From positions 1 through 57,606 of the IMG/VR virus record IMGVR_UViG_3300037842_000445: a DNA stretch of 57,606 nt; one strand, written 5' to 3'. Each line of letters begins with the position of its first letter. Positions within the stretch are counted from its first letter, which is position 1. Source of the stretch: a virus. Positions 478-43,488 of this stretch are shown piece by piece. The position numbers and the translations under genes are program-made. The notes below the pieces were generated by a model, which was given only the letters and a program-made list of their open reading frames with translations, was not told the DNA's origin and ran no database searches.

Positions 478-551
478 CGACTCCAGCGGGACTCGAACCC
501 GCAATCACCGGATCGACAGTCCGGGGCATTAACCAATTATGCTATGAAGCC
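478..551 (-). tRNA. tRNA-Asp(GTC)
   Basis: Cloverleaf read from the minus strand: acceptor GGCTTCA/TGGAGTC, anticodon arm CCGGA-CTGTCGA-TCCGG with anticodon GTC, T arm with loop TTCGAGT, discriminator G. CCA is not encoded. Confidence 0.9.
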
Positions 552-552
552 C

Positions 553-628
553 TGGGGCGACTAGAGGGAATCGAACCCATCATTTGCGGGATCACAACCC
601 GCCGCTTTAACCATTAAGCTATAATCGC
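553..628 (-). tRNA. tRNA-His(GTG)
   Basis: Acceptor GCGATTA/TAGTCGC, anticodon arm GCGGG-TTGTGAT-CCCGC with anticodon GTG, T loop TTCGATT. The discriminator is C, as expected for His. Unlike its neighbour, CCA follows the discriminator in the DNA. The base before position 1 is T rather than the G usual for tRNA-His. Confidence 0.9.
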
Positions 629-630
629 AG

Positions 631-702
631 TGCGACTGCCGAGCCACGATCTCGGACGATCAGCTTGGAAGGCTGACATGCTGCCAATTACATCACAGAC
701 GC
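631..702 (-). tRNA. tRNA-Gly(TCC)
   Basis: Anticodon arm TCAGC-CTTCCAA-GCTGA gives anticodon TCC. Acceptor GCGTCTG/CAGTCGC has one T-T mismatch. The T arm CCGAG/CTCGG is intact, but its loop reads ATCGTGG instead of the usual TTCRANN. Confidence 0.8.
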
Positions 703-746
703 AAACGATGCAATTTATATCCCCCGGCATCTCGGGGTTCTAGATA

Positions 747-821
747 TAGTGCCGGTGGGAGTCGAACCCACACCTGTAGGACGCTTAAAATCCTCGCCTC
801 TGCCAGTTGGGCTACGACACC
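747..821 (-). tRNA. tRNA-Leu(TAA) with short variable loop
   Basis: Acceptor GGTGTCG/CGGCACT, anticodon arm AGGAT-TTTAAGC-GTCCT with anticodon TAA, T arm GTGGG-TTCGACT-CCCAC, discriminator A. The variable region is only six bases (ACAGGT), a class I body, whereas bacterial tRNA-Leu has a long variable arm. Its 5' end holds the stop codon of the 55-residue gene upstream. Confidence 0.88.
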
Positions 822-979
822 TCAACGTGTTTCTTTAGCACGTTCATGAGTGCTTCCTGTCTGTCTCTGGAACTCTCTGGATCTTCCATACACTGTTCAA
901 CGTATGTATCCTTGTAGAGATCATAGTCGATCTCCTCCAGAAGTTCCTTCAGCAAACTTGTAGCTTGATCTTCATTCAT
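812..979 (-). CDS. hypothetical acidic 55-residue protein
   Basis: ATG at 977-979 overlaps the TGA of the preceding membrane-protein gene as ATGA, the coupling used throughout this strand. The frame encodes 55 residues beginning MNEDQATSLLKELLEEIDYD, acidic and helical in appearance. Its TAG stop lies inside the 5' end of tRNA-Leu(TAA), so mRNA and tRNA share bases. No family recognised. Confidence 0.65.
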   Translation of the reverse strand: MNEDQATSLLKELLEEIDYDLYKDTYVEQCMEDPESSRDRQEALMNVLKKHVEVS

Positions 980-1191
980 TTAAAGTATCTTCTTGTTAAG
1001 TTGGCGAGGGTCAAAACCGCGAAAAAAGCCGATAGTATACATGTCAACACAGCCATGACCGCGTTGTGATGATAAGCACTGAGAAAGAAGAGGAACAAGT
1101 ATACCACTAGGCACACTATGCTCATGATTAATTCTACTACATTGGATGTATCTGGACCCTGTTCGTACTTAGGAGGGTCATAGGGACTCAT
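976..1191 (-). CDS. small two-helix membrane protein
   Basis: This 71-residue protein has a hydrophilic Pro-rich N-terminus and two predicted membrane helices at about residues 19-40 and 44-63, ending in a basic RRYFK tail. The start overlaps the stop of the secreted protease gene upstream (ATGA). Function unknown; it could be an envelope-associated partner of that protease (inference from position). Confidence 0.7.
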   Translation of the reverse strand: MSPYDPPKYEQGPDTSNVVELIMSIVCLVVYLFLFFLSAYHHNAVMAVLTCILSAFFAVLTLANLTRRYFK

Positions 1192-1769
1192 TCCAGAAAC
1201 TTCTTAATTGTACTGAGGCCAGCCCCATTAATCATTTGAGGTGTTCCACCCGATTGAACGGCAATTATGGAACCCTTGTATTGAACCGACGCTCCAGACA
1301 AACCGTTAATAGCCTTCCCATGTGCCGTCCATAGACGCTCACCATCCGTTGTCGTCCACCCCTTATCGTAAGTGGTGTAGTCGTGTTTTTGTTTGTCTAA
1401 GTAATGATAACCCGTAACATTTACCGTAGTGTATTTTTGTGGTTCTTTATCTGCGAGGGTGACCGTCTTCACCTCTATTTTACCCTTAACTTCTACTAAG
1501 GCTAAATCCCACACCCTATGCTGCGACAGTACTTTGGCGGGAAATGAATACTCACCCTCTTTGTTGTAGAAAGAGACACTTGTCTTTTGACGTGGGAGCA
1601 AAAAAAATCCGTGACCGCATGTTAAAACTAATGTTTTTTCATCATTAGATTCTATGACGGTCCCAGAAAAGGAAGCACCCTTTTCACGATGAACCCTAAC
1701 TACAGAGTCAAAATCTTCAGCCGAGATAGGCGTAAGAAGTAAGAAAAACGTGATTAGACTCTTAAACAT
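1188..1769 (-). CDS. secreted trypsin-like serine protease
   Basis: The start at 1769 is chosen because it follows an AAGGAAA ribosome site and opens with a signal peptide (MFKSLITFFLLLTPISA). Longer frames run back through tRNA-Leu(TAG). The 193-residue protein has a chymotrypsin-fold triad pattern: His53 in TCGHGF, Asp88 in WDLALVEV and Ser158 in GLSGAS. An exported protease between tRNA genes is unusual for a phage early region. It might act on envelope or periplasmic proteins (inference). The family assignment is firm; substrate and role are unknown. Confidence 0.82.
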   Translation of the reverse strand: MFKSLITFFLLLTPISAEDFDSVVRVHREKGASFSGTVIESNDEKTLVLTCGHGFFLLPRQKTSVSFYNKEGEYSFPAKVLSQHRVWDLALVEVKGKIEVKTVTLADKEPQKYTTVNVTGYHYLDKQKHDYTTYDKGWTTTDGERLWTAHGKAINGLSGASVQYKGSIIAVQSGGTPQMINGAGLSTIKKFLE

Positions 1770-1792
1770 GTTATGGTTTCCTTTTAATGTAG

Positions 1793-1877
1793 TAGCATTG
1801 ACAGGAATCGAACCTGCACGCTTTTTAGGGCAAAGGCTTCTAAAGCCTCCGTGTCTACCTTGTTCCACCACAATGCC
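1793..1877 (-). tRNA. tRNA-Leu(TAG)
   Basis: Type II tRNA of 85 nt: acceptor GGCATTG/CAATGCT, anticodon arm GAGGC-TTTAGAA-GCCTT with anticodon TAG, a long variable arm of about 16 nt, T loop TTCGATT, discriminator A. Confidence 0.9.
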
Positions 1878-1954
1878 ATGTTTTCGACACTTTTGTGTAT
1901 AAATGCTAGCCTCCACGTCACCTAGCACATGTAATTATAATCTTCCATTACCAG

Positions 1955-2398
1955 TCAATTCCAGTACGCCCCCGTTAGTTCAAAATTCTTTGATGACAGC
2001 TTTCGATCTCTTGTGCATATCATACACTGTTCTTTTTTCATATCATAGTAGTAATACGTATACATATCAGATTTATTAGTTTTAGTATACTTAACATGAT
2101 AATCCTCATGCCTCTGTAGTTCTTTATTAAAACCTTTAATAGTAGACAAAGACTTATGTTTCCAAGGTATCATTCCAATATGACTACGACCGTCTTCTTC
2201 TATTACCAACCTATCAAATGGTCTATCAAGCTCATATCTCCATCTAATAAAACCATCTTCAGGATAGCGTACCGCTCTAGAAGAACCATTAGAATTATAC
2301 ATCCTTATAGTCACTTGGTTCGATACTGCTTTAGCTCCGATAAATGGGAGTAAAATAGAAGAGAGTCCAAGTTTTACAGCATTTCTACGATTAATCAT
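1955..2398 (-). CDS. exported protein with Tat-like signal peptide
   Basis: The 147-residue protein starts MINRRNAVKLGLSSILLPFI, a twin-arginine-type leader: RR followed by a hydrophobic stretch and an AKA cleavage-like site near residue 24. The rest is rich in Tyr, Lys and Arg with a CMIC pair near the end. The start overlaps the stop of the HNH gene (ATGA). A Tat signal would send a folded protein across the membrane. The mature domain is not recognised. Confidence 0.7.
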   Translation of the reverse strand: MINRRNAVKLGLSSILLPFIGAKAVSNQVTIRMYNSNGSSRAVRYPEDGFIRWRYELDRPFDRLVIEEDGRSHIGMIPWKHKSLSTIKGFNKELQRHEDYHVKYTKTNKSDMYTYYYYDMKKEQCMICTRDRKLSSKNFELTGAYWN

Positions 2399-2703
2399 AT
2401 TCTTTCCTGATACTTCTCGTTAAAGTCTTTAAATCTCACAAGCCTCATCATATGCCTAAACATAGGCACAAACTTCTTCCAGTTCGACAAGTCGAACGTA
2501 TTGCTAGCGTGAACACTAATGATATGACAACACCTACACAGGCTCACACCGTTGTCTAAATCGTACGCCTTGTCCGGATACAAACTCTTTGGGTAAATGT
2601 GGTGTGCTTCTATTGTACCCACCCGACCGCACATTTGACATGTGTTTTTGTCTCTAATCCTTACGGCCTTAGACCATTTTCTTAGTGAGTAAGTATTTAA
2701 CAC
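2395..2703 (-). CDS. HNH endonuclease
   Basis: A GTG at 2703 preceded by AGGAACGA is the likely start. The 102-residue protein has the HNH core: CQMC zinc pair, EAHHIYP (catalytic His), an Asn in LDNGVSLC, and CRCCH completing the zinc site. Small free-standing HNH nucleases nick or cut DNA and in phages are often homing enzymes. Inserted within the tRNA array, it may be a mobile gene. Confidence 0.88.
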   Translation of the reverse strand: MLNTYSLRKWSKAVRIRDKNTCQMCGRVGTIEAHHIYPKSLYPDKAYDLDNGVSLCRCCHIISVHASNTFDLSNWKKFVPMFRHMMRLVRFKDFNEKYQERI

Positions 2704-2721
2704 TCGTTCCTCGTAATAAAA

Positions 2722-2795
2722 GTACGAACCTCAGGAATCGAACCCAAGCAGGCCGCTAAACCTATGTCAATTAAGTCGCTCCACACCGCGTCCCG
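2722..2795 (-). other. degenerate tRNA-like sequence
   Basis: A T-arm-like segment (loop TTCGATT) and the first half GTGGAGC resemble tRNA. However, the D stem and anticodon stem do not close and the acceptor pairing is poor. I could not assign an anticodon. Probably a decayed tRNA gene; boundaries are approximate. Confidence 0.3.
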
Positions 2796-2844
2796 GCAAG
2801 CTATGTACACTTACTTACCTTATTCGGCAGACAATCCGCATAAG

Positions 2845-2915
2845 TGCGAGTGACAGGGATCGAACCTGCTTTTCATCATTGGCAATGATAGGTAATACCA
2901 TTATACTACACTCGC
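2845..2915 (-). tRNA. tRNA-Gly(GCC)
   Basis: Perfect acceptor GCGAGTG/CACTCGC, anticodon arm TATCA-TTGCCAA-TGATG with anticodon GCC, T loop TTCGATC, discriminator A. Confidence 0.92.
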
Positions 2916-2920
2916 CTCAT

Positions 2921-2990
2921 TTCCCCACGAGGACTTGAACCTCGAATAAGGGAATCAAAATCCCTTGTGTTACCCATTACACTATGGGGA
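2921..2990 (-). tRNA. tRNA-Gln(TTG)
   Basis: Acceptor TCCCCAT/GTGGGGA, anticodon arm AGGGA-TTTTGAT-TCCCT with anticodon TTG, T loop TTCAAGT, discriminator A. Confidence 0.92.
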
Positions 2991-3006
2991 AGTAGTGCCT
3001 GTTTAG

Positions 3007-3079
3007 TACCCAATAGGGGAATTGAACCCCTGTTTTTGGCGTGAAAAGCCAATGTCCTAGTCCACTAGACGAATCGGGC
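3007..3079 (-). tRNA. tRNA-Glu(TTC)
   Basis: Acceptor GCCCGAT/ATTGGGT, anticodon arm TTGGC-TTTTCAC-GCCAA with anticodon TTC, T loop TTCAATT, discriminator A. Confidence 0.92.
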
Positions 3080-3084
3080 TTAAA

Positions 3085-3158
3085 TAGGTAAGGAAGGAGT
3101 CGAACCTACGGTCTCCCACTTATCAGGCGGGTGCTTTATACCACTTAGCTACACTTCA
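3085..3158 (-). tRNA. tRNA-Ile(GAT)
   Basis: The D arm, anticodon arm CCCGC-CTGATAA-GTGGG (anticodon GAT) and T loop TTCGACT are clear. The acceptor strands TGAAGTG and CTTACCT pair poorly, so this tRNA may be decaying or need correction. Confidence 0.65.
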
Positions 3159-3161
3159 ATG

Positions 3162-3258
3162 TCCACCGGACGGGATTCTAACCCGCGAGTCTAGTCTTGT
3201 CGATCTGTCTAATGCCCATCCCAAGGGTATGTGCCTTGGTAGCTCCGACTTCCGGTAG
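3162..3258 (-). other. oversized tRNA-like RNA, 97 nt
   Basis: Acceptor strands CTACCGG/CCGGTGG pair along all seven positions and the T arm GCGGG-TTAGAAT-CCCGT is intact. The interior is too long for a tRNA. The best anticodon-like arm is TACCC-TTGGGAT-GGGCA (would be GGG, Pro), leaving about 26 nt before the T arm and a poor D arm. Either a pseudo-tRNA with an insertion or an RNA that only mimics tRNA ends. Confidence 0.4.
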
Positions 3259-3262
3259 TTTT

Positions 3263-3850
3263 TCACAATTCAATTCTGTTCAAAATGAAGTCCATTCCAA
3301 TGTCTTTGTCAGACCACCACGTTAGGTTGTAAGCGACTCTTATGCTTACATTATAGTATCTGACCTTCGGTTTGTCAAGGGTTACTTCTTTGTATTTCCA
3401 AGAAAAGCCACATTGGTGACTTCTGTACCTCATGAGGGTTTTCTTACCGTTGGCGTCTTTATCCCATTGCCAGCGATATACGTAGTCAGCAGACTGATAG
3501 TCCTTAACTCTCTCTGTCCGAATAACCTGTTTGCGTTTTTGACGCTCACAAATGTCTTCAATCCGAAAGGGAATATTGTGTTCAGTGAGATATTCCTTAA
3601 CAGCATACATGTTCCGCCAGTTATTATCTGACAAAACTATCTCATGCTGTTTACCGCGAGGGTTTTCGCGGTGTTGTCTCTGACGTTTGCCCTTCCAGCT
3701 TTCGCCGGGCCAGTTACCGTGACCGTCGTAAAGCACGTATTTCAAGTCGTTGACCCTACTACGGCGACTATATGGACAGTCCTGAGTCTCCCGAAGTTCT
3801 TGACGTACTCTAGGACCGTTGTACCAGTAGGGGTTTCTTCGTTTACGCAT
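3263..3850 (-). CDS. hypothetical basic protein
   Basis: A 195-residue, strongly basic protein beginning MRKRRNPYWYNGPRVRQELR, with many Trp and Tyr and no membrane segment. An ACAGGAG ribosome site precedes the ATG. It lies between two tRNA groups. The composition suggests nucleic-acid binding, but no domain is recognised. Confidence 0.72.
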   Translation of the reverse strand: MRKRRNPYWYNGPRVRQELRETQDCPYSRRSRVNDLKYVLYDGHGNWPGESWKGKRQRQHRENPRGKQHEIVLSDNNWRNMYAVKEYLTEHNIPFRIEDICERQKRKQVIRTERVKDYQSADYVYRWQWDKDANGKKTLMRYRSHQCGFSWKYKEVTLDKPKVRYYNVSIRVAYNLTWWSDKDIGMDFILNRIEL

Positions 3851-3933
3851 CTGATTTCTCCTGTTGTTAATGTTAATTACATCATCAGAGAAATCTCCTT
3901 GTTAAAAAGTTAGTCATATCAAACTCCTGTAAG

Positions 3934-4008
3934 TCGGGATGACAGGATTCGAACCTGCGGCTTCTTAGTTCCAAACCAAGCACTCTAGCCAAACTGAGCT
4001 ACACCCCA
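3934..4008 (-). tRNA. tRNA-Pro(TGG)
   Basis: Acceptor TGGGGTG/CATCCCG, anticodon arm CTTGG-TTTGGAA-CTAAG with anticodon TGG, T loop TTCGAAT, discriminator A. Confidence 0.9.
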
Positions 4009-4040
4009 GCGTAGTGTTTTAAAGAGACACAAAACTCTAG

Positions 4041-4113
4041 TAGCCGTATCGGGTAACGCTCCCGAATTTTCCTGCTTATGAGGCAGGCAAGGTCACTATC
4101 CCTCCCTACGGCG
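4041..4113 (-). tRNA. tRNA-Met(CAT)
   Basis: Anticodon arm CCTGC-CTCATAA-GCAGG gives CAT. Acceptor CGCCGTA/TACGGCT has an unpaired first position, which recalls initiator tRNA. The T stem TCGGG/CCCGA is good but its loop is AGCGTTA. It could also be tRNA-Ile with a modified CAT anticodon. Confidence 0.75.
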
Positions 4114-4134
4114 TCATTATCACATTTAGTTAAG

Positions 4135-4224
4135 CGGAAGACAAGGGATTTGAACCCTCACGCCCCCTTTCGGAGACGCACGGTTTAGCAAACCGGCCCA
4201 GCAAACCGTATCTGGCTACCTTCC
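4135..4224 (-). tRNA. tRNA-Ser(GCT)
   Basis: Type II tRNA of 90 nt: acceptor GGAAGGT/GTCTTCC, loop TTGCTAA with anticodon GCT, a long GC-rich variable arm, T loop TTCAAAT, discriminator G as usual for Ser. Confidence 0.88.
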
Positions 4225-4225
4225 G

Positions 4226-4411
4226 TTACGTATTCTGAATGGTTACTTCGCCACGAAATACGTCTTGAAATAACACTTCAAATTCTTCTCCCTCGTCATT
4301 AACGAGCCAGTATCCCGGCTCGTCTTGCGACTCGATGTATCTATCTAGTATGCCGGTTTCACATTCTTTGTAGTAATTCCAGCAAACCTTGACCCTATCT
4401 CCAATATCCAC
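4226..4411 (-). CDS. hypothetical 61-residue protein
   Basis: Starts MDIGDRVKVCWNYYKECETG and is acidic overall. The opening beta-rich pattern (DRVKV..., then EFEVLFQDVF) resembles a small SH3-like barrel, but this is only an impression. It lies tightly between tRNA-Ser(GCT) and the next tRNA. Confidence 0.65.
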   Translation of the reverse strand: MDIGDRVKVCWNYYKECETGILDRYIESQDEPGYWLVNDEGEEFEVLFQDVFRGEVTIQNT

Positions 4412-4439
4412 TGTTCGTTCCTCACAGGTGAAGAAAAAG

Positions 4440-4529
4440 TGCTCCCGGTAGGATTCGAACCTACGTGTGTTGTTTCCAACATGTCCGTTTAAAAGACGGA
4501 TGATTTCAGCCAGACTTATCTACGAGAGC
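4440..4529 (-). tRNA. type II tRNA with anticodon TTT (Lys codons)
   Basis: Acceptor GCTCTCG/CGGGAGC pairs fully, anticodon arm TCCGT-CTTTTAA-ACGGA gives TTT, T arm GTAGG-TTCGAAT-CCTAC, discriminator A. Between anticodon and T arms is a long variable arm with stem GTTG-GAAA-CAAC. Lysine tRNAs normally have a short variable loop; long arms belong to Leu, Ser and Tyr. The charged amino acid is therefore uncertain. Confidence 0.82.
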
Positions 4530-4574
4530 ATAGTGTTCAGGACACACGCTCCACGTAATGCGGGCTATGTGTCG

Positions 4575-4769
4575 TTACTGTTTATGTTTGTCGTGTTTAG
4601 TCATTGTTTCAGTCTTTGATTTTTCAAAGTGTTCTTTAAAAATGCTATGTGCTCTCTGAACACATTCCCATCTTGCGTCTGTAGCGTGTTTAACTAGGAA
4701 GTCAATAGCATCTGGAGCATCTTTTAAGATTCTTTTTGCTTCTTCAAATGGATGTTCTTCTGGACACAT
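4575..4769 (-). CDS. hypothetical helical 64-residue protein
   Basis: MCPEEHPFEEAKRILKDAPD opens a charged, helix-rich protein with a His/Lys-rich tail (KHDKHKQ). Its ATG directly follows the TAA of a very short upstream frame. No family recognised. Confidence 0.6.
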   Translation of the reverse strand: MCPEEHPFEEAKRILKDAPDAIDFLVKHATDARWECVQRAHSIFKEHFEKSKTETMTKHDKHKQ

Positions 4770-4853
4770 TTACGCGAAATACTTTCTAATAAAAACGTCG
4801 GTGTATACTGTGCGTCTCGGACTATGATCCTCGAAAACTACGATTTTACTCAT
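4770..4853 (-). CDS. possible 27-residue peptide
   Basis: The frame MSKIVVFEDHSPRRTVYTDV... ends in TAA immediately before the ATG of the next gene, as expected for translational coupling. There is no good ribosome site, so it is only a candidate. Confidence 0.35.
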   Translation of the reverse strand: MSKIVVFEDHSPRRTVYTDVFIRKYFA

Positions 4854-4904
4854 AAAACCAGCCAACCATCAGATTGCTCTTATGATCCACACTCTCAACG
4901 TTAG

Positions 4905-4987
4905 TGACAGAAGAAGGAATCGAACCTAAAATGCCGAAAGGCGAGAGATTTACAGTCTCCGGGGCACACCACCTGCCCAATTCTGCC
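4905..4987 (-). tRNA. tRNA-Tyr(GTA)
   Basis: Type II tRNA: acceptor GGCAGAA/TTCTGTC, anticodon arm GGAGA-CTGTAAA-TCTCT with anticodon GTA, long variable arm, T loop TTCGATT with a weak T stem, discriminator A. Confidence 0.87.
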
Positions 4988-5023
4988 ATGTGTAAGTGTT
5001 TTTAAGGAACACTCAAACCTTAG

Positions 5024-5095
5024 CTGGACAGACAGGGGTTGAACCTGTAATCATTCCGTTAACAGCGGAAGGCATTACCATTATGCTACTGTCCA
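5024..5095 (-). tRNA. tRNA-Asn(GTT)
   Basis: Perfect acceptor TGGACAG/CTGTCCA, anticodon arm TTCCG-CTGTTAA-CGGAA with anticodon GTT, T loop TTCAACC, discriminator G. Confidence 0.92.
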
Positions 5096-5125
5096 ATGTA
5101 TCGACCTCTTCAGGTCGTGTACTCT

Positions 5126-5153
5126 ATTATAGCTTATAAACCCCGAATGTCAA
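5126..5153 (-). promoter_or_regulatory. sigma70 promoter for the tRNA array
   Basis: TTGACA, 16-bp spacer, TATAAT on the minus strand. It points at tRNA-Asn and the genes beyond it. The TGA stop of the upstream gene lies within the -35 box. Confidence 0.85.
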
Positions 5154-5407
5154 GGTCTTATTGTAGGATTTTCTTCACTTTGTAGAGATTCACACGTTTT
5201 GTAGTCTAATTGTCCTTGAACGTCCATGCGTGCCTTCAGTTCTTCCAGCAGTTCGCCGTTAGTGGCGTTACCCAGCCACGGTTGAGACCAGATCTCATCT
5301 AGGATATCAGCAAATGCTTCAGCTAGATCTGGGTCCATCGGGGTCATTCTGTTTGCGTCCGTACACCATGCCTGTGCGGCCTTCTGTAGTGATAGTTCCG
5401 ATGCCAT
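5150..5407 (-). CDS. hypothetical 85-residue protein
   Basis: MASELSLQKAAQAWCTDANR followed by an acidic helical segment and PWLGNATNGELLEELKARM. I recall this kind of small phage protein from other tailed phages, with no assigned role. It ends inside the -35 box of the tRNA promoter. Confidence 0.7.
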   Translation of the reverse strand: MASELSLQKAAQAWCTDANRMTPMDPDLAEAFADILDEIWSQPWLGNATNGELLEELKARMDVQGQLDYKTCESLQSEENPTIRP

Positions 5408-5411
5408 TTTG

Positions 5412-5753
5412 TTAGTCCTTTTTTCTGTATTCCGCTAATTCTTTACAAGCGTACATCAGCTTACCCTGAAAAACCTCCTCGTAGTGCTCTAGATCTGACC
5501 GTGGGATGTACCCAATCTCCGTAAACTCAATAGACCCTGAGTGTGTTATGCCCCAATGTTCAGTGCCTAGTCGAGCGTAGAATGAGTAAGTGTGTTCCCT
5601 CAAAAGTTGAGCGTCGTAATAAGCAAAACAAAAATTAGGGTCTGGACTATCCCAATCTTCATTGTTGTCTAGTAGCGTTTTTGCTCTTTCGCTCATCTCA
5701 GCCGCTAGGGTGTTCACCATCGACTGAAGTCTATTACAAATCATCATTTCCAT
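5412..5753 (-). CDS. hypothetical 113-residue protein
   Basis: Starts MEMMICNRLQSMVNTLAAEM after an AGGAGAG ribosome site. Mixed helix and strand composition, acidic, with an aromatic centre (YSFYARLGTEHWGI). It stands directly downstream of the structured RNA at 5779-5866, so that RNA forms part of its leader or a terminator before it. Confidence 0.7.
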   Translation of the reverse strand: MEMMICNRLQSMVNTLAAEMSERAKTLLDNNEDWDSPDPNFCFAYYDAQLLREHTYSFYARLGTEHWGITHSGSIEFTEIGYIPRSDLEHYEEVFQGKLMYACKELAEYRKKD

Positions 5754-5778
5754 TACTCTCTCCTAATAAAAAATTAAA

Positions 5779-5866
5779 AGGGGGTACGTCGTCTGCTGGC
5801 GGGACACCACCACAGTTAGCCCTCACAGGTGCTGTGGAGTACTTCGACGACGCATCCCTCCCCCTT
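5779..5866 (-). ncRNA. stacked-helix structured RNA or complex terminator
   Basis: Three nested helices: GGGGG/CCCCC (5780-5784 with 5860-5864), a 7-bp CGTCGTC/GACGACG (5787-5793 with 5846-5852) and CCACAG/CTGTGG (5810-5815 with 5832-5837). On the minus strand the closing stem is followed by CCCCCTTTTAATTTTTT, a U-tract. It lies between tRNA-Ser(TGA) and a protein gene. It could end tRNA transcription or be a separate small RNA. Confidence 0.55.
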
Positions 5867-5874
5867 AGTTTGAG

Positions 5875-5960
5875 CGGAAGATGAGGGAATCGAACCCCCT
5901 ACGTATTATTTCACCGCGATACGGTTTTCAAGACCGTTTGTTCCCATGAACCTATCTTCC
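5875..5960 (-). tRNA. tRNA-Ser(TGA)
   Basis: Perfect acceptor GGAAGAT/ATCTTCC, anticodon arm ACGGT-CTTGAAA-ACCGT with anticodon TGA, long variable arm, T loop TTCGATT, discriminator G. Confidence 0.92.
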
Positions 5961-5962
5961 AG

Positions 5963-6035
5963 AGCCACCAGTAGGGGTCGAACCCACGACCGTCAATTTA
6001 CAAGATTGCTGCTCTACCAACTGAGCTATGGTGGC
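5963..6035 (-). tRNA. tRNA-Thr(TGT)
   Basis: Perfect acceptor GCCACCA/TGGTGGC, loop CTTGTAA with anticodon TGT, T loop TTCGACC, discriminator T. First gene of the array in transcription order. Confidence 0.9.
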
Positions 6036-6570: not shown

Positions 6571-7242
6571 CTACTTTTTAGCAGCCTTGTTTTCCCAAGC
6601 ATCAAGTGTGTGTTTAAACGGCTCACCGGGGATATCTCGGACTAATTGTAGCATTTCTTGAGCTATCTCTCTTATCTCTAACTGTGCGTGCTCAGAATTC
6701 CGAAGTCTTTGGAAATTAGCAAAGCTACGCATGTTAAACGACACGTCGGCTTGAATTTGGCTGTTGTATGCCTTAAAAAACCGTGCTGACTCTTTAGCTC
6801 TCTTTCGCCCTATCGTCTCCGTTAGTTCTTTCAGACACTGGTGGTATAGTTGATTGCCTGCGTCTGTGTAGTCTGTGAGCGTGTCCTTCCACTTCTGAGG
6901 CCAATCCTCTGGAATAAAGAACTTATCCTCGCGTAGCTCCTTATAGCGTGCTGACTCGGCGTTCAGGGAGCTAATACGGTGCTTCAGTAGATGAATATGG
7001 CTGGCGATCTCAGTATTAACCAAGAAATGTACCATACCCTTCTCAAAGGGCGTCTCGTGACCAGCATCCCAAAGAGAATTAATGAGAGTGCCGACCCTCG
7101 CTTGCTTCTCTGGACTAAGATCCCGACTTGTGCTTGTCCACGCACTACAAGCTATTACGGTATCTGATCCGTAATGACCCAGTAATTCTACTTTGTTTCC
7201 CACAATTTTTTCTCCAGAAGGTGAATTCGACGCCGTTGCCAT
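6571..7242 (-). CDS. thyX: flavin-dependent thymidylate synthase ThyX
   Basis: The 223-residue protein carries the ThyX signature at residues 87-99 (KHRISSLNAESAR, family motif RHRxxSxNxxSxR) and the early VELLGHYGSD strand. ThyX makes dTMP from dUMP using FAD, NADPH and methylene-tetrahydrofolate, supplying dTTP for phage replication. A small upstream frame overlaps its first 55 bases. Length and motif fit an intact enzyme. Confidence 0.95.
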   Translation of the reverse strand: MATASNSPSGEKIVGNKVELLGHYGSDTVIACSAWTSTSRDLSPEKQARVGTLINSLWDAGHETPFEKGMVHFLVNTEIASHIHLLKHRISSLNAESARYKELREDKFFIPEDWPQKWKDTLTDYTDAGNQLYHQCLKELTETIGRKRAKESARFFKAYNSQIQADVSFNMRSFANFQRLRNSEHAQLEIREIAQEMLQLVRDIPGEPFKHTLDAWENKAAKK

Positions 7243-12802: not shown

Positions 12803-12845
12803 GGACAAACTTTAAACTTTCTGTCAGATTACACCGACGGCGTTT

Positions 12846-13100
12846 GTACCTGTGAAGAACTGGGTAGCTCATACAGGAACAATAGTGTTGTTAGTAAGCA
12901 GTGTGGACTTTAAATGCTAGTGGAATTACGATGCTAACAGCGAAACTATGCTTTTCTTCACAGGTCTAGGTTGCACGCCTGCATTGCCTAGATTTGGGTT
13001 TTGCCACACCTTGGAGCGGTCGTTCGCTCTCCGATAACTTACTCTCTCACAATGGGTAAGAACGATAACTTCACCCGATTACGTTTTTGGTACTAATTCT
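12846..13100. ncRNA. structured RNA element, copy A
   Basis: No convincing coding frame. Plus-strand helices: H1 ACCTGTGAAGAA/TTCTTCACAGGT (12848-12859 with 12954-12965), H2 CTAGG/CCTAG (12966-12970 with 12987-12991), H3 GAGCG/CGCTC (13014-13018 with 13025-13029), H4 GGGT+AAG/CTT+ACCC (13054-13060 with 13069-13076), and pseudoknot GTGTGG/CCACAC (12901-12906 with 13004-13009) linking the H1 loop to the H2-H3 junction. Copy B (40719-40975) has every helix with compensated changes. Shared unpaired blocks include GGACTTTA and GATTACGTTTTT. Strand is unresolved: a U-run and possible G-U pairs favour plus, while promoter-like boxes to the right favour minus. Confidence 0.75.
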
Positions 13101-13269
13101 TATGAGCCGCCGGGCCTTTAACACCATGCCCGTCTATAAAAATACCGCTTGAGGATTATAGTGCTTGAACACCAATTCCCCAAACGGCACTTATTACTTT
13201 TACACAACTGTGACAAAGTATGCCCTGAAGACATGTCTGTGACACAACTTTGACATTACTTTGACAGAA

Positions 13270-16607: not shown

Positions 16608-17477
16608 TTACCACTGCCCCATTGGGATATCATCATCCTCATCTTCGTCGAAGACAATGTCGTCATAGTCGTCGTCATCCTCGTAGTACTCTTCATCCTC
16701 CTCGAAGACTTCAGACTCGATCAGTTCCTTGGCGATACCGATGACTTCATAACTGCTGACCCTGATCTTCTGACAGTTACAGTCACTAGGTACGCTGACG
16801 ATATCAGCAGGGCTGAACTTAACCAGAACTACCGCACCACCGTAACCAGCCCAACCCTCTGCGTACTCGTAAGTACCAATGTGGAGACCACCTGAGCAAC
16901 CCTGAGTATGGTCATCGCAGACCTGACGGCGAGGCATGTGGTTCACGTCACCGACTTGATTCCGAAAGGAATTGCCAGTGTACTTGTCAACCATACAGCC
17001 TTCCAGTAGTTGGCGGTTCAGCTTGTCCTGACGGGCCTCGCCACGGTAGATGGCAACACCCTTGTAGCCAACCATACAACCGTCCTCAGTGATAGGTAGA
17101 CCCTTGTGAGAGGACCACTCGTAGGATTCCTGAACCGCACGTTGAGACACGTTGGAGTACAGGTTATCAAGGTAACGCAGCATGGGCTTGTGATCCCACC
17201 CACTTTTGATCATGTCAATGATCCGCTGGGTAGGCTGGCTGGCAACCTGCTCGTTGTCACCAAACCATAGGTAACCATCACGAATGGTGAAATTACCCTC
17301 ACTCCAGTCCTCAATCACGGTTCCAACATCGAAGACCTCCAAGAAGCTATCCTCATCAGAACACTTGACACACTCTACCAACTGATCGTATTCAGGGTGA
17401 GTAGGGTCGAACTGAAAGGGTTTGCCATCGAGGATGACGGTCCAGAAATTGTTGTTGTCTTTGATGTGACTCAGCAT
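16608..17477 (-). CDS. rIIB: rIIB-like protein
   Basis: The ATG at 17475-17477 follows AAGGAAAG; the earlier in-frame ATG overlaps the -10 box and is rejected. 289 residues resembling T4 rIIB: YSNVSQRAVQESYEW, GLPITEDGCMVGYKGV, GCMVDKYTGNSF, GLHIGTYEYA and VKFSPADIVSVPSDC, then a highly acidic tail. rIIB acts with rIIA at the membrane in lysis timing and phage exclusion. Here rIIA lies just upstream, as in T4. Confidence 0.88.
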   Translation of the reverse strand: MLSHIKDNNNFWTVILDGKPFQFDPTHPEYDQLVECVKCSDEDSFLEVFDVGTVIEDWSEGNFTIRDGYLWFGDNEQVASQPTQRIIDMIKSGWDHKPMLRYLDNLYSNVSQRAVQESYEWSSHKGLPITEDGCMVGYKGVAIYRGEARQDKLNRQLLEGCMVDKYTGNSFRNQVGDVNHMPRRQVCDDHTQGCSGGLHIGTYEYAEGWAGYGGAVVLVKFSPADIVSVPSDCNCQKIRVSSYEVIGIAKELIESEVFEEDEEYYEDDDDYDDIVFDEDEDDDIPMGQW

Positions 17478-17520
17478 TTTTAACTTTCCTTGGTTGAAGA
17501 AGACTCGTATCGTTTCACCC

Positions 17521-17548
17521 ATTATAGTCTAATATCGACAGAAGTCAA
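17521..17548 (-). promoter_or_regulatory. sigma70 promoter for rIIB
   Basis: TTGACT, 16 bp with TCGATA, TATAAT, about 45 bases before the rIIB start. Confidence 0.85.
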
Positions 17549-17572
17549 TGGGTAATACACTATTTTTGTGAA

Positions 17573-17893
17573 TTAAAGGGTTTTATCCGAAAGAACAGAG
17601 AATTCGCGGTCATAACACACGAAGAAACTCTTGAGAATATAGTGACTATCACAGAAACTGTCGGCTGAACTATCTTTTGCCCACAAGTTAATGCGATAGC
17701 GTTCCACCTCACCCTTACTCCACAGGTGTCCTTTAGCTACCCGATTCACCTTCGCGGACTCTTCGGGAGTTAACTTTTCCTCAAGGAATGTTGACAACAC
17801 TTCACTTGGGATGACTGGTCCCTCATCTTCCTTGACAGGCTTCTTATCTTCACGGGTTTTTGATCTGATTTTCTCGTCATGAGCCAGCGGCAT
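17573..17893 (-). CDS. hypothetical 106-residue protein
   Basis: MPLAHDEKIRSKTREDKKPV, then a helical SEVLSTFLEEKLTPEESAKV and a VERYRINLWAKD strand. Between rIIA and rIIB; T4 has no such gene here. Basic N-terminus; function unknown. Confidence 0.68.
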   Translation of the reverse strand: MPLAHDEKIRSKTREDKKPVKEDEGPVIPSEVLSTFLEEKLTPEESAKVNRVAKGHLWSKGEVERYRINLWAKDSSADSFCDSHYILKSFFVCYDREFSVLSDKTL

Positions 17894-17920
17894 TGTATTA
17901 TCTCCTGATTAGTGGTTGAA

Positions 17921-17946
17921 AGAGACGCCCCCACTAAGGGGGCGTC
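17921..17946 (-). terminator. hairpin after rIIA
   Basis: Perfect stem GACGCCCCC/GGGGGCGTC with loop TTAGT, 13 bases past the rIIA stop, followed on the minus strand by TCTTTC. The T-run is weak, so it may be a processing or stabilising hairpin. Confidence 0.65.
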
Positions 17947-17958
17947 GTATCGAGTCGT

Positions 17959-19860
17959 CTACTTGACCGTCGCATCGATGTAGCGAGCTACCTTCTGCTT
18001 TGCGTTGGAAATATCCCAGTTACTCAGCAGTGTCAGCATCTCATACTTCACGAAGAACGCATCCATCCACGCTTGTAGGGTATGGTCTTCCTTGATATTA
18101 CCCTTGATACCCAAACGTTTACAGATCCCGGAGATCTTGTCATTCTTACTGGTATCACGCATATTGGTGAATTCATCCAGTTCATCACTGCCCATGAATT
18201 TCTCAATATGTGACAGAGTAGATGTCTGTTCCTTATCGAACTTGTAATAAGTCGTAGGCTTAATCTTCTCATACTCACGTTTAGCAAAATCACGTAGTGT
18301 GATAAACTTCCCACTCTTGAAAGCGGCAGTCTTAGTGAAAGCCGTCTTCAATCCAAGCACCTTAGGTGTGGTGATACCACATTCCTTCATAGTTTTAATA
18401 CTACTGGAGATATTACTATTACATCCTTCAACGGTACAGATGTCGTTAACAGGTTTCCATCGAGAGATCTCAACGTACACAATCTCCTGACCGTTGTCAT
18501 CCAGTTCCTCTTCCAGCCAGTAACCCTCTGGACTGTAGTAGGAATACTTATCATTGAATGCAAATACCTTACACGTAGATGTAGTCCCGTTCTTGGCTTT
18601 CTTCTCAACTTTGGGAAGATCCTCCAAGTCCAACAGAACGTCCCGGTCGAGAAGTACTTCGTCAACCTGTTCGTCTGTCAGGACAACCATTTTGGTATCC
18701 CTAGACTGATCCCTCATGTGCTGCTTAATACGACCCTGCATTCTGTCTTTATGAAGGTAGTATACTACCCCATCTCCAACAGGACACGACTTAGACGTAT
18801 TTCGCTCAGTAGTTCTCCAATATCGTCCCCAGTAGACAATCTCAGTGGTAGCTTCAGGCAGAAAATAACCGTTGAGGGTATTATTATTGATCAATCGACC
18901 AATCTGTCCCCTTCTCAGTTTATCTGCCATCACCGCACGCAAGTACGGAGTAGGCTCCGCTTCCACCTTGGCGATAGCTTCCTGACCAATCTCGTCCTTG
19001 ATCTTTTCGATCTTATCCGCAATTGCTTTACGAGTCTTGTCGTCTAGCGACAGGTTCTCACGAGCAGTATCGAAGCTAATCTCACCCAGTTCAAACCTGA
19101 TCAGACCACTACAGTTGAGGGTATCGATCTCTTCAGGAATACGGTAGGCAATGTTACCCATAAGGGCGACCATACCACCCCAAGAACTGTTTAGGGAATA
19201 AAATTCCCCCTCGAAATCATACGTGTCCCGCTGATCATTACACTTACGTATAACCTCCTGATTATTAATATCGGGAGTCTCATCCCACCACTTGAAGACG
19301 TTGACGGCTTCTTGCTCGAATGTTGAGACGCGACCCTCCACATTCACCGTAACTTCCAGACCGTCAAGGGCATCGGAATCCACCTGTGACAACATAGCCA
19401 CAACGGGTTCCCGGATCTCGTTACGGTAACATGAGTACGTACTCAGCTTACCAGCCTTCCAACTCTTTACCGTGAAACTATCACATAATGAGTATGGAGA
19501 CAGACTACCAATCCCAAAACACCCAATAGTGTCGTTGTTATCACGTTTAGTGGAGATACCTACACCCGCAAAAGTACTACGGATCTCATGCTCGTACAAT
19601 CCCAGTCCGAAGTCTCGGATGGAGAACCACGGTTCCAACTGAGTGGGGAGGTGAATCTTGAACTTCACATCCTTCCTACCAGCCATAACGTGGGAGTCGT
19701 AGGCATTACAACTCAACTCACGGATGACTGCCCGCTCTTTATAGGTGTATACCTTGTCTGCGAACATATCTACAATAAAGGCAACGTCACCCACGCTGTA
19801 CGTGGAAGTCTTAAAGTCGCCCTGAATAGATACGTCTTGCTTTGGAGTTTCGAGTTTCAT
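17959..19860 (-). CDS. rIIA: rIIA-like protein with GHKL ATPase domain
   Basis: 633 residues. The N-terminal GHKL ATP-binding motifs are visible: N box RELSCNAYDSH (48-57), G1 RDFGLGL (82-88) and G2 GCFGIGSLSPYS (113-124). The rest matches the expected length and layout of T4 rIIA. rIIA is membrane-associated and acts with rIIB in lysis inhibition and superinfection exclusion. It has its own promoter at 19913 and a hairpin after the stop. Confidence 0.88.
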   Translation of the reverse strand: MKLETPKQDVSIQGDFKTSTYSVGDVAFIVDMFADKVYTYKERAVIRELSCNAYDSHVMAGRKDVKFKIHLPTQLEPWFSIRDFGLGLYEHEIRSTFAGVGISTKRDNNDTIGCFGIGSLSPYSLCDSFTVKSWKAGKLSTYSCYRNEIREPVVAMLSQVDSDALDGLEVTVNVEGRVSTFEQEAVNVFKWWDETPDINNQEVIRKCNDQRDTYDFEGEFYSLNSSWGGMVALMGNIAYRIPEEIDTLNCSGLIRFELGEISFDTARENLSLDDKTRKAIADKIEKIKDEIGQEAIAKVEAEPTPYLRAVMADKLRRGQIGRLINNNTLNGYFLPEATTEIVYWGRYWRTTERNTSKSCPVGDGVVYYLHKDRMQGRIKQHMRDQSRDTKMVVLTDEQVDEVLLDRDVLLDLEDLPKVEKKAKNGTTSTCKVFAFNDKYSYYSPEGYWLEEELDDNGQEIVYVEISRWKPVNDICTVEGCNSNISSSIKTMKECGITTPKVLGLKTAFTKTAAFKSGKFITLRDFAKREYEKIKPTTYYKFDKEQTSTLSHIEKFMGSDELDEFTNMRDTSKNDKISGICKRLGIKGNIKEDHTLQAWMDAFFVKYEMLTLLSNWDISNAKQKVARYIDATVK

Positions 19861-35318: not shown

Positions 35319-35533
35319 TATTCAGAAACCCCTACAATTGAAACCATTGAGATTGAAGTGTGAAAACCCCAGAGAACGTGAGACTTGACGCCAGTCTCGA
35401 CATTTTGGAGAAGAATTGAAGCCTTCTTCTGTCCATGTTGCCGAGCGGCAAAAGGAACATTGAGAACACGACGATTGCCGTGGAAACCTGCGACCACGTC
35501 TCCGGGAACTAGTTGATTTGCTTTTTTCTTCAT
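35318..35533 (-). CDS. small beta-rich protein (paralogue 1)
   Basis: 71 residues: MKKKANQLVPGDVVAGFHGN. Nearly identical to 36510-36725, differing at only a handful of positions, which indicates recent duplication. The LVPGDVV...V pattern suggests a small SH3-like or Hint-like barrel. Unknown function. Confidence 0.72.
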   Translation of the reverse strand: MKKKANQLVPGDVVAGFHGNRRVLNVPFAARQHGQKKASILLQNVETGVKSHVLWGFHTSISMVSIVGVSE

Positions 35534-35587
35534 TTTACTTACTTTCGAGTTGTTTACTGTGAGAGTGTATTGTAGCAGAAACGTCTA

Positions 35588-36513: not shown

Positions 36514-36725
36514 ACTTCAACTCCTACAATTGAAACCATTGAGATGGTTGTGTGGAAACCCCAAAGAACATGAGACTTAACGCCAGTCTCTACATTTTGA
36601 AGAAGGATAGAAGCCTTCTTCTGTCCATGCTGCCGAGCAGCGAAAGGAACATTGAGAACGCGGCGGTTGCCGTGGAAACCTGCGACTACGTCGCCGGGAA
36701 CTAGTTGACTTGCTTTTTTCTTCAT
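36510..36725 (-). CDS. small beta-rich protein (paralogue 2)
   Basis: 71 residues: MKKKASQLVPGDVVAGFHGN, almost the same as 35318-35533. ATG preferred over an in-frame TTG upstream. Unknown function. Confidence 0.72.
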   Translation of the reverse strand: MKKKASQLVPGDVVAGFHGNRRVLNVPFAARQHGQKKASILLQNVETGVKSHVLWGFHTTISMVSIVGVEV

Positions 36726-36761
36726 CTTACTTACTTTCAAAAACTTAACTTGTGAGTGTGT

Positions 36762-39531: not shown

Positions 39532-39917
39532 TACACAGCCCCCAGAATCGTCTTGTCCCTATAAATCCCCATAACCAACTGTTTTTTAGGCAGCATCCCG
39601 GAGTGCTTAACTGGCATAGACATTCCATACTCCTTAATAAGACCCTGAACATTTTCAAGATCAAGCCTGCGATCTCTTATATACTCAATGCCCAAATATG
39701 CCCCTGTAGTCTTACCATATCTAGTCTCTCCCCAAATATCAAACTCCGGATAAAGATCCGTCGGTATAAGGATAGTCTCCAGACGGTCCCTAGAATGTCC
39801 CCACATGAGATATATCAGCTTCTTGGATATATTATCGCTCTCCTTATCGTAGAACAGCGTGTTAGCGTCTACGGCTTGTTTCATTCTCTCTTCAAATTCG
39901 AAATTCATCAAATCCAC
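39531..39917 (-). CDS. hypothetical protein between two HNH genes
   Basis: Up to 128 residues (GTG at 39917; ATG three codons later gives MNFEFEERMKQAVDANTLFY). Alpha/beta composition with YGKTTGAYLGIEYIRDRRLD. It overlaps both flanking HNH genes, so it travels with them. Family not recognised. Confidence 0.65.
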   Translation of the reverse strand: MDLMNFEFEERMKQAVDANTLFYDKESDNISKKLIYLMWGHSRDRLETILIPTDLYPEFDIWGETRYGKTTGAYLGIEYIRDRRLDLENVQGLIKEYGMSMPVKHSGMLPKKQLVMGIYRDKTILGAV

Positions 39918-40671
39918 TTTCTACTTCCTCCCAAGTGTCATTTTTGGACAAATTCTCTGCGGCCCACAGCGGCTGCAAGTTGGTATAATGAAAACAGGCC
40001 CTCTGTTCTTCCTCGTTCGTCATGTCGAACGCTGCACATGGCTTTATGTGATCTATATGCCAGCCGTAAAAGCCGTAGTTGTCCCAAGTCATGCCCTCCT
40101 GAAACTGGCCCTCAAGATGTTGTTTCAATTTACTTAGAGTACAACCAGCCAGTCCCATCGTTGATCCGACCTTCTTAGTCTCAGCATTTTTTACAGCATG
40201 CGAAAGACGGCTTCGTAGGCTTTTCGCTATTCGTACCTGTACGTGTTCACGGGCATATTTGGTTGTGTAGGCATGAACTTTCTGCTTGTTATTCAAGTAG
40301 TACCTTCTGCTAATTTCGTACATCTTTTCCTTGTTTTCTTCTCTCCAGCGTTTACATTGTGCCCGTGCCTTTTCTGGATTTTCTTTTCGCCACCTCTTTT
40401 GGTATTCTAGACTTTCTTCTCTATTCTCTTTATACCATTGCTTTCTACGCTCTAATGATCTCTCTCTGTTTTCTTTGTACCAACGTTTCATTGCTACCTT
40501 ACACTGTTCTGAATTTTCTTTGTAGTAAGATCTCGTCCCTGCGGAATGACACTCTCTACATATACCACGGCGATAAGGATTGCCATATTTATCCCTACGT
40601 TTTTTTGACACAATACCAAATTCATCTAGGGGTTTCATTTGGTTACAATCCTTACAAGTTTTTGTTTCCAT
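39892..40671 (-). CDS. HNH homing endonuclease 2
   Basis: 259 residues: CKDC and CREC zinc pairs near the start, a long basic repeat of KENREESLEYQKRWRKE type, then LAGCTLSKLKQHLEGQFQEG, WHIDHIKPCAAFD and FHYTNLQPLWAAENLSKND. It begins about 50 bases from non-coding element B. Confidence 0.9.
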   Translation of the reverse strand: METKTCKDCNQMKPLDEFGIVSKKRRDKYGNPYRRGICRECHSAGTRSYYKENSEQCKVAMKRWYKENRERSLERRKQWYKENREESLEYQKRWRKENPEKARAQCKRWREENKEKMYEISRRYYLNNKQKVHAYTTKYAREHVQVRIAKSLRSRLSHAVKNAETKKVGSTMGLAGCTLSKLKQHLEGQFQEGMTWDNYGFYGWHIDHIKPCAAFDMTNEEEQRACFHYTNLQPLWAAENLSKNDTWEEVESGFDEFRI

Positions 40672-40718
40672 CTTTTCTTCCTGTTAATTATCGCCCGTCA
40701 GGGCGTACCAAGACCATT

Positions 40719-40975
40719 TGTACCTGTAAAGGTACTTGGAGCTGTGTTAGAGGACAGTGAGGACTTTAGTGCTAGTTGGTGTTACTGTTACTAAATCTCT
40801 TTGGGCTTCAGCCTAAGCTGCTTTACAGGTCTGGGTCGGTTGGTCACACGTTGCCCAGAATTTTGTAGTTGCCTCACCTTGGGGTGCTTGTTCACCCACC
40901 GATAATCCTCTGATTTGCATGTGGGTCAGAACGCTAAACTGTACCCAATTACGTTTTTTTACCAATTTCATGCAA
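40719..40975. ncRNA. structured RNA element, copy B
   Basis: Same helix plan as copy A with compensated pairs: H1 ACCTGTAAAG/CTTTACAGGT (40722-40731 with 40821-40830), H2 CTGGG/CCCAG (40831-40835 with 40854-40858), H3 GGGTG/CACCC (40882-40886 with 40893-40897), H4 GGGT+CAG/CTG+ACCC (40923-40929 with 40939-40946), pseudoknot GTGAGG/CCTCAC (40757-40762 with 40872-40877). It lies between the leftward early genes and the rightward late genes. Confidence 0.75.
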
Positions 40976-41044
40976 ATTTGTGACACTTTACAGCCATTGC
41001 CACACTCTATTCTAGTCAAAATTGACGGTTTTAACAAAACCTTT

Positions 41045-41073
41045 TTGTCAAAGTTGTCTAATTTGAGTATAAT
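41045..41073 (+). promoter_or_regulatory. promoter at the head of the late block
   Basis: TTGTCA, 17 bp, TATAAT on the plus strand, 39 bases before the first rightward gene. First plus-strand promoter of this type in the window. Confidence 0.8.
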
Positions 41074-41111
41074 AGAGTAGAGAACAGACAACTTTAACGC
41101 ATGGGGCAAGA

Positions 41112-41279
41112 ATGAACAGTAAAAAAGAACCACAAGATTGTGAGGTAGAACTTTGTTGCAAGGCTACCGCAGAATTGAAGCTGGAAATCTCCAAAGAACT
41201 AGAACAAGACGATAAGGCCCTAGGGGTCTTGTTAAAACCCAAGGAAAAGGAACCGGATGAAAATCAAGATACCGCATGA
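41112..41279 (+). CDS. hypothetical acidic 55-residue protein
   Basis: MNSKKEPQDCEVELCCKATA, helical, ending KEKEPDENQDTA. Overlaps the next gene by 23 bases. First gene of the late block; unknown function. Confidence 0.65.
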   Translation: MNSKKEPQDCEVELCCKATAELKLEISKELEQDDKALGVLLKPKEKEPDENQDTA

Positions 41280-43230: not shown

Positions 43231-43488
43231 ATGACACCTAAGGACTTCACTTATTGGTTACAGGGGTTTTTTGAGCTATCTAATGAGGATGTGACCCTAA
43301 GCCATAGGCAATTAAAAATCATCAAAGATCACCTGAATCTCGTGTTTGACAAGGAAACACCTGATCGTTCTACCGAGGAGGGCGGCGACGAAGAACTACC
43401 TACTGATATATTCTCCCCACCCAACAGATGGAAAGAAATAACCTTTGCCGTAGGCGGAGCAGGTTTGGGCGAAAGGGGGAGTTGCTGA
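43231..43488 (+). CDS. conserved small phage protein
   Basis: 85 residues: MTPKDFTYWLQGFFELSNED, then LSHRQLKIIKDHLNLVFDK. The KDF.YWLQGFFEL...IKDHL.LVF pattern recurs in phages as I recall it; role unknown. Overlaps the gmd start by one base. Confidence 0.75.
   Translation: MTPKDFTYWLQGFFELSNEDVTLSHRQLKIIKDHLNLVFDKETPDRSTEEGGDEELPTDIFSPPNRWKEITFAVGGAGLGERGSC

Follow-up and report, generated by a model that had tools for sequence, protein, structure and literature searches.

The window analysed here, a stretch of 57,606 bases from an IMG/VR virus record, carries fifteen tRNA genes at 478-6035 by ARAGORN, all on the minus strand, which is also the strand of the two RNA copies described below; no tmRNA was found in the window by the same program. 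Two of the structural genes have no relative in INPHARED, the other genes have mixed relatives, and the phage has no close named relative. The genes also include those for a ThyX-like thymidylate synthase, rIIB-like and rIIA-like proteins, a GDP-mannose 4,6-dehydratase and a ClpP-like protease (6571-7242, 16608-19860, 43428-44642 and 45660-46316). Between 23651 and 37381, an 88-base repeat (GACGTAAGTCGTT..., with a GC-rich centre and inverted halves) occurs eleven times, about 0.6-2.9 kb apart, together with many small ORFs, and a 220-base direct repeat of 90% identity is found at 35327-35546 and 36519-36738, 1,192 bases apart. Many similar leftward promoter-like sites of the TTGACA/TATAAT type precede small genes between 5125 and 33675, often with a TATCGGCATTGTCAA-like core, given in the plus orientation (repeat families D2 and D4).

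A sequence-only reading had described the segments 12846-13100 and 40719-40975 as two related, gene-free and pseudoknotted RNA elements, hereafter copies A and B, which share four compensated helices and one pseudoknot. We compared the two segments with each other, then with the families of Rfam 15, with named phages and with both viral and genome contigs. The absence of genes was borne out for copy A, which is free of ORFs of at least 70 aa, but not in the strict sense for copy B, since two mechanical ORFs (40359-40760 on the plus strand and 40813-41133 on the minus strand) overlap it. The pairing pattern and the indels nevertheless argue against copy B being coding. No third copy was found in the window by an nhmmer profile search, in agreement with the original count of two.

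We then assembled the RNA family. The first relative, L001, a contig with a close copy of B, was picked up by a pattern search, and related phages were fetched with the terminase gene of the window as the query. A nucleotide profile made from A, B and L001 afforded more RNA copies, located a few kb upstream of the terminase gene, and further copies were gathered via the sigma-like gene beside B, the rIIB-like gene near A and two conserved patterns. After removal of near-identical sequences, the family comprised 50 distinct members, all in one group of large uncultured phages. The alignment used throughout, A4, contains 48 of them (46 in addition to A and B); the divergent members L083 and L016 were held out. 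A blastn search of A and B against INPHARED detected no relative among the named phages. Likewise, neither the profile nor a P1-plus-loop search yielded an RNA copy in the next-nearest phage group (L178-L202), whose sigma-like protein is 52-58% identical, so that the family may be absent there or may have diverged past detection. The 15 matches of a conserved 22-base pattern in GTDB genomes were treated as chance, because the profile fits the pattern alone there, and the pattern matches in the viral contigs L235, L244 and L245 were also discarded as chance, as was L004 after inspection.

A mutual-information scan indicated where the helices lie (Table 1 gives the final set), including ones that are partly outside the two segments initially reported. 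The segments are too short, as the strongly covarying 5' hairpin P1 lies beyond their ends (13132-13111 in A and 41002-40981 in B). The conserved covarying element measures about 290-375 nt across the 48 sequences. The sequence beyond helix c is variable, and neither the 3' end nor a terminator could be defined.

Table 1. Positions of the RNA copies, their helices and the neighbouring promoter-like sites in the window. Strands are given in the order of the minus-strand RNA where the positions descend.
Feature	Copy	Sequence	Position	Basis
Whole RNA	A		5' end near 13134, 3' end near 12830 (approximate)	A4 pair counts, strand test, nhmmer on the window (E 4.8e-57)
Whole RNA	B		5' end near 41007, 3' end near 40700	A4 pair counts, strand test, nhmmer on the window (E 8.1e-75)
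P1 hairpin	A	CGGGC/GCCCG	13132-13128 with 13115-13111	A4
P1 hairpin	B	TGGCA/TGTCA	41002-40998 with 40985-40981	A4
Kissing helix a	A	GGTGTT (P1 loop)/AACACT	13125-13120 with 12889-12884	A4
Kissing helix a	B	GGCTGT (P1 loop)/ACAGCT	40995-40990 with 40745-40740	A4
P2	A	CTCATAA/TTGTGAG	within 13046-13106	motifs located in A
P2	B	ATTTGCATG/CATGCAAAT	about 40977-40913	motifs located in B
P3	A	GGGT-g-AAG/CTT-ACCC	13076-13069 with 13060-13054	inner part covaries
P3	B		40946-40939 with 40929-40923	inner part covaries
Putative pseudoknot b	A	AACG/CGTT (P3 loop)	13085-13082 with 13064-13061	read from sequence
Putative pseudoknot b	B	AACG/CGTT	40955-40952 with 40933-40930	read from sequence
Helix e	A	AGTAAG/CTTACT	13043-13038 with 12898-12893	A4
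Helix e	B	AGAGGA/TCCTCT	40911-40906 with 40754-40749	A4
P4 hairpin	A	GAGCG/CGCTC	13014-13029	A4
P4 hairpin	B	GGGTG/CACCC	40897-40882	A4
Kissing helix c	A	CGAC (P4 loop)/GTCG	13022-13019 with 12838-12835	A4
Kissing helix c	B	CAAG (P4 loop)/CTTG	40890-40887 with 40712-40709	A4
Helix d	A	GTGTGG/CCACAC	13009-13004 with 12906-12901	A4
Helix d	B	GTGAGG/CCTCAC	40877-40872 with 40762-40757	A4
P5 hairpin	A	CTAGG/CCTAG	12966-12991	A4
P5 hairpin	B	CTGGG/CCCAG	40858-40831	A4
Kissing helix f	A	GGCG (P5 loop)/CGCC	12979-12976 with 12842-12839	A4
Kissing helix f	B	ACCA (P5 loop)/TGGT	40844-40841 with 40716-40713	A4
P6	A	CCTGTGAAG/CTTCACAGG	12964-12956 with 12857-12849	A4
P6	B	CCTGTAAAG/CTTTACAGG	40829-40821 with 40731-40723	A4
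Putative promoter, weak	A	TTGGGG-17-TATAAT	13155-13183, about 23 bases before P1	below promoter-scan threshold
Strong promoter beyond the 3' end, for the next gene (12752-12303)	A	TTGACA-16-TATAAT	12802-12775	promoter scan
Putative promoter	B	TTGTTA-17-TAGAAT	41037-41009	second hexamer ends a few bases before P1

The strand of the RNA was assigned from the exceptions to Watson-Crick pairing, since Watson-Crick pairs themselves are strand-neutral. When the listed helices are read on the minus strand, the exceptions are 123 G·U against 22 A·C, with ratios of 16:0 in P1 and 16:0 in P4, indicating that the RNA is the minus strand and is read leftward. The plus orientation in which the helices had been written before was thus replaced.

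The fold comprises at least 12 helices, and the loops of four hairpins (P1, P3, P4 and P5) are each paired with a distant strand. From the 5' end, P1, whose loop forms helix a, is followed by P2, which encloses strand b and hairpin P3 with its loop pairing to b, and by the 5' strand of e. Next come P4, whose loop reaches the 3' tail through c, the 5' strand of d, P5, whose loop reaches the same tail through f, the 5' strand of P6 and a variable part. The 3' strands follow in the order d, e, a, P6, and the RNA closes with a tail that f and c hold in place. Of these helices, a, e and d are nested and make up a body from which the hairpins P2/P3, P4 and P5 branch off, and which P6 crosses as a pseudoknot.

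In A4, the resulting 59-pair structure is formed in 93.4% of the pair cells, whereas only 33.4-47.1% of the cells are paired in slid controls with the 3' partners moved by one to three columns. Two-sided changes occur in 50 of the 59 pairs and amount to 420 cells, against 103 cells in shuffles, and none of 500 shuffles reached the observed covariation score. At some paired positions, four or more pair types are used. RNAalifold, unaided, also recovered a, inner P3, e, P4, d and P5.

The five pairings of the sequence-only reading all proved to be present in both copies. Its H1 is P6 (98.6% of cells paired, two-sided changes in 6 of 9 pairs), H2 is P5 (87.5%, with five strong inner pairs and only the outermost pair weak), H3 is P4 (99.2%), H4 is the inner part of P3, for which RNAalifold recovers three pairs with 22, 17 and 2 two-sided changes, and its pseudoknot is helix d (98.2%, 5 of 6 pairs with two-sided changes). 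To these are added P1 (99.2%, all five pairs), the kissing helices a (97.2%, 5 of 6 pairs), c (100%, 2 of 4 pairs, the other two being invariant) and f (92.7%, 4 of 4 pairs; L077 has a compensated CTA/TAG core), helix e (97.9%, 6 of 6 pairs), P2 and the putative pseudoknot b. P2 is paired in 71.5% of the cells with two-sided changes in all eight pairs, and its region is poorly aligned by MAFFT. Since P3 and b vary in form among the subgroups, they were assessed visually, with a simple search of each sequence and, for inner P3, with RNAalifold; the evidence for b, which was read from the letters, is weaker. A further pairing spotted by eye, AAGACC/GGTCTT, was dropped, as it is broken about as often as it is kept.

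As the structure was derived from A4 itself, L083 and L016 served as a check outside the alignment. In both, P1, a, c, P5 and P6 are retained in a changed sequence: GGTAGC/GCTACC or GGTGAT/ATCACC in helix a, CGAG/CTCG in helix c and CCATAGAAG/CTTCTATGG in P6. Helix e is kept in L083, and also in L016 one alignment column off; L016 has one mismatch in P4; and helix d coincides with gaps there, so that it can be drawn only by eye. The fold thus passed the check proposed together with the first observation, namely more homologues and their covariation: with 46 further sequences, 50 pairs with two-sided changes and most helices kept in the two held-out members, the relatives support the reading of the two-copy element as a selected, pseudoknotted RNA fold.

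Immediately upstream of the 3' strand of P6 (12849-12890 in the window, A4 columns about 362-412), many copies carry a second sequence like GUACCUGU. This could pair locally with ACAGGU in competition with P6, possibly as a switch from one fold to another, although the pattern was seen by eye and was not counted.

We next examined the distribution of the two copies. Both occur, in the same order, in all four contigs long enough to cover the two positions, namely the window, G001, G002 and a 172,984-bp contig (L126 + L203), at a spacing of about 20-28 kb where measured, and the window, G001 and G002 have just two copies each. In the B group, the RNA is present in those contigs whose sequence upstream of the sigma-like gene is long enough to include its place. 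A tree separates seven of the eight A copies from the B copies and leaves the A copy L203 on a lone long branch, while the divergent L083 and L016, which occupy the B position, fall near the A group. The duplication into A and B hence appears to be old, although such a tree is weak evidence.

The surroundings of copy B are strictly organized at its 5' end. In 40 of 42 B copies, including that of the window, a TATAAT-like hexamer precedes P1 at an invariant distance (the exceptions are L044 and L083), and 16-18 bases further upstream there are usually TTG-like letters. A strong rightward promoter-like site for the late-type genes, TTGTCA-17-TATAAT at 41045-41073, faces the sigma-like, terminase and head genes and stands back to back with the leftward site of copy B (41009-41073 together), which places copy B at a divergent switch point. 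On the 3' side, the ORFs that follow on the same strand belong to many unrelated groups and are often far away, in many phages by hundreds of bases, although some phages have an ORF beginning only 1-26 bases past the aligned end of B (17 bases in the window). In the window, the adjoining gene (39892-40671) encodes an HNH/endonuclease VII-like protein; a gene of this type also adjoins B in several further phages, though most lack it at this place, which fits a mobile nuclease gene. A constant linkage of the RNA to one downstream gene family on the same strand was thus not observed, and this variety suggests that the RNA is probably free-standing and not a riboswitch.

Copy A is situated differently. 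The gap between the last same-strand tRNA gene and the RNA as aligned measures 5, 11, 25 and 73 bases in L089, L277, L100 and L278, respectively, and 195 bases in L269; no adjoining tRNA gene was seen at copy A of the window or at L203. The strong promoter found beyond the 3' end of copy A (Table 1) has counterparts at the same place in the other A copies: six of seven have a TTGAC-type and a TATAAT-type box, and the seventh, L277, has the TATAAT box only.

Taken together, we consider it likely, in the absence of transcript data, that A and B are two paralogous versions of one non-coding phage RNA, about 300 bases long, which is free-standing and works in trans. Copy B would be transcribed leftward from its own sigma-70-type promoter, with the start at or next to P1, where the leftward genes meet the rightward block of sigma-like, terminase and head genes. 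In most relatives, copy A would come at the end of a tRNA operon, as its final unit, whereas that of the window would probably depend on its own weak promoter. The transcript is predicted to fold into a compact body with the loops of P1, P3, P4 and P5 tied to distant strands. This reading rests on the independence from neighbouring genes, the strict position of the B promoter, the place of A in tRNA operons with a separate promoter downstream, and the elaborate conserved fold. The family, its strand and fold, the promoter pattern, the synteny and the exchange of neighbouring genes were observed directly; a stable RNA working in trans during infection is inferred from them, and its mode of action is unproven. 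The undefined 3' end, the close, leader-like ORF after B in some phages, and the lack of a tRNA gene and the weak -35 box at copy A of the window speak against a free-standing RNA.

Covariation cannot separate contacts within one molecule from contacts between molecules, and the kissing loops could therefore also form homo-oligomers. The two copies differ as sets in their tail contacts, with CGAC/GUCG against CAAG/CUUG in helix c and GGCG/CGCC against ACCA/UGGU in helix f, and oligomer contacts would thus be largely A with A and B with B. Without any oligomer data, we can only tentatively propose a new class of compact phage RNA in which every main hairpin loop kisses and in which the two old copies, through their different contact letters, each assemble separately in early infection, into either an RNA-only homo-oligomer or an RNA/protein particle, and we hold this version to be improbable as it stands.

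The main rival to a free-standing, trans-acting RNA is a cis-acting antitermination leader whose first base would be position +1 of the early transcript that runs leftward. In phage HK022, the put RNAs are structured leaders at the start of early transcripts that modify RNA polymerase so that terminators are read through, and a leader of this kind would be indifferent to the identity of the following gene. Indeed, the B copies begin at the expected transcription start at the head of the leftward block, and their downstream genes vary. However, the A copies are directly followed by another promoter and its gene, where such a leader would be of little use, and several of them start just after a tRNA gene and without a promoter. 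The put RNAs are moreover far shorter and simpler than the new RNA, and we regard this explanation as unlikely, if still to be taken seriously.

A structural RNA that serves a DNA process, for example as a packaging RNA, a replication primer or an origin transcript, is a good deal less probable. The phi29 packaging RNA (pRNA) is a small phage RNA that likewise relies on loop-loop (kissing) contacts, and one of our copies lies about 5 kb from the terminase gene. Transcription nevertheless runs away from the terminase block, the two copies are 20-28 kb apart, and the relatives of the terminase bear the annotation of ordinary large subunits, from Bacillus and other phages; pRNA also differs in size, in terminase context and in the number of copies, and the RNA described here has no match to it in Rfam 15. 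Still less credence can be given to a riboswitch or other gene-specific 5' leader for the next leftward gene: the short distance of 1-26 bases to an ORF in some phages, 17 in the window, would suit it, but the family of the next gene differs in most phages, the first same-strand ORF is often hundreds of bases off, and a separate promoter stands between the A copies and the next gene. Finally, leaders of rightward transcripts on the plus strand, which Watson-Crick covariation fits equally well, are hardly tenable in view of the G·U exceptions on the minus strand and the conserved promoter at the minus-strand 5' end.

The element had not been recognized as a known family, and this remained so. 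At gathering scores, Rfam 15 matched only tRNAs in the window, the two RNA regions giving chance-level matches up to E 5, and its models for GOLLD, ROOL, OLE, the group I intron, RNase P and 6S RNA gave no match. The RNA represents a previously undescribed phage family, which annotation pipelines would miss throughout this phage group for want of an Rfam 15 match. Only a handful of large 'ornate' RNAs have been described from bacteria and phages. At about 300 nt, it is smaller than GOLLD and ROOL and hence easier to make, probe and image, and the strong covariation fixes its fold. Two old paralogues, of which B is tied to a promoter that is likely to be early and A to tRNA operons, would also make the role of tRNA-linked ornate RNAs more testable.

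ROOL is found in phages and prophages, often near tRNA islands, and has a complex secondary structure including several pseudoknots and kissing loops, with a length of 659 nt in one example and no known function (PMC12286853). GOLLD is a phage RNA that also often lies near tRNA islands, in one example downstream of a tRNA gene, rises in lytic infection and forms an RNA-only cage; many of its members exceed 800 nt, and its function is likewise not known (PMC12286853). Both RNAs abound in kissing loops and can assemble into cages made of RNA alone (PMC12286853). The new RNA falls short of the length of these two (about 600 to over 800 nt), and it is a member of neither, as no model matches it and it has about half their length or less. 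ROOL in particular is about twice as long, the helix layout of the new RNA was derived independently, and copy B lies at a promoter between gene blocks and not beside tRNA genes. Like ROOL, however, it has a fold rich in pseudoknots and kissing loops, and most of its A copies directly follow tRNA genes. The phage-encoded, tRNA-linked setting of GOLLD and ROOL is thus matched only in part, as no tRNA gene was seen next to copy A of the window or L203 and the B copies start at a promoter instead. By analogy, a role as a scaffold or as an RNA/protein particle, as proposed for GOLLD and ROOL, is inferred to be the most likely one, and these two RNAs may be seen as its closest analogues, by likeness of style and not of sequence.
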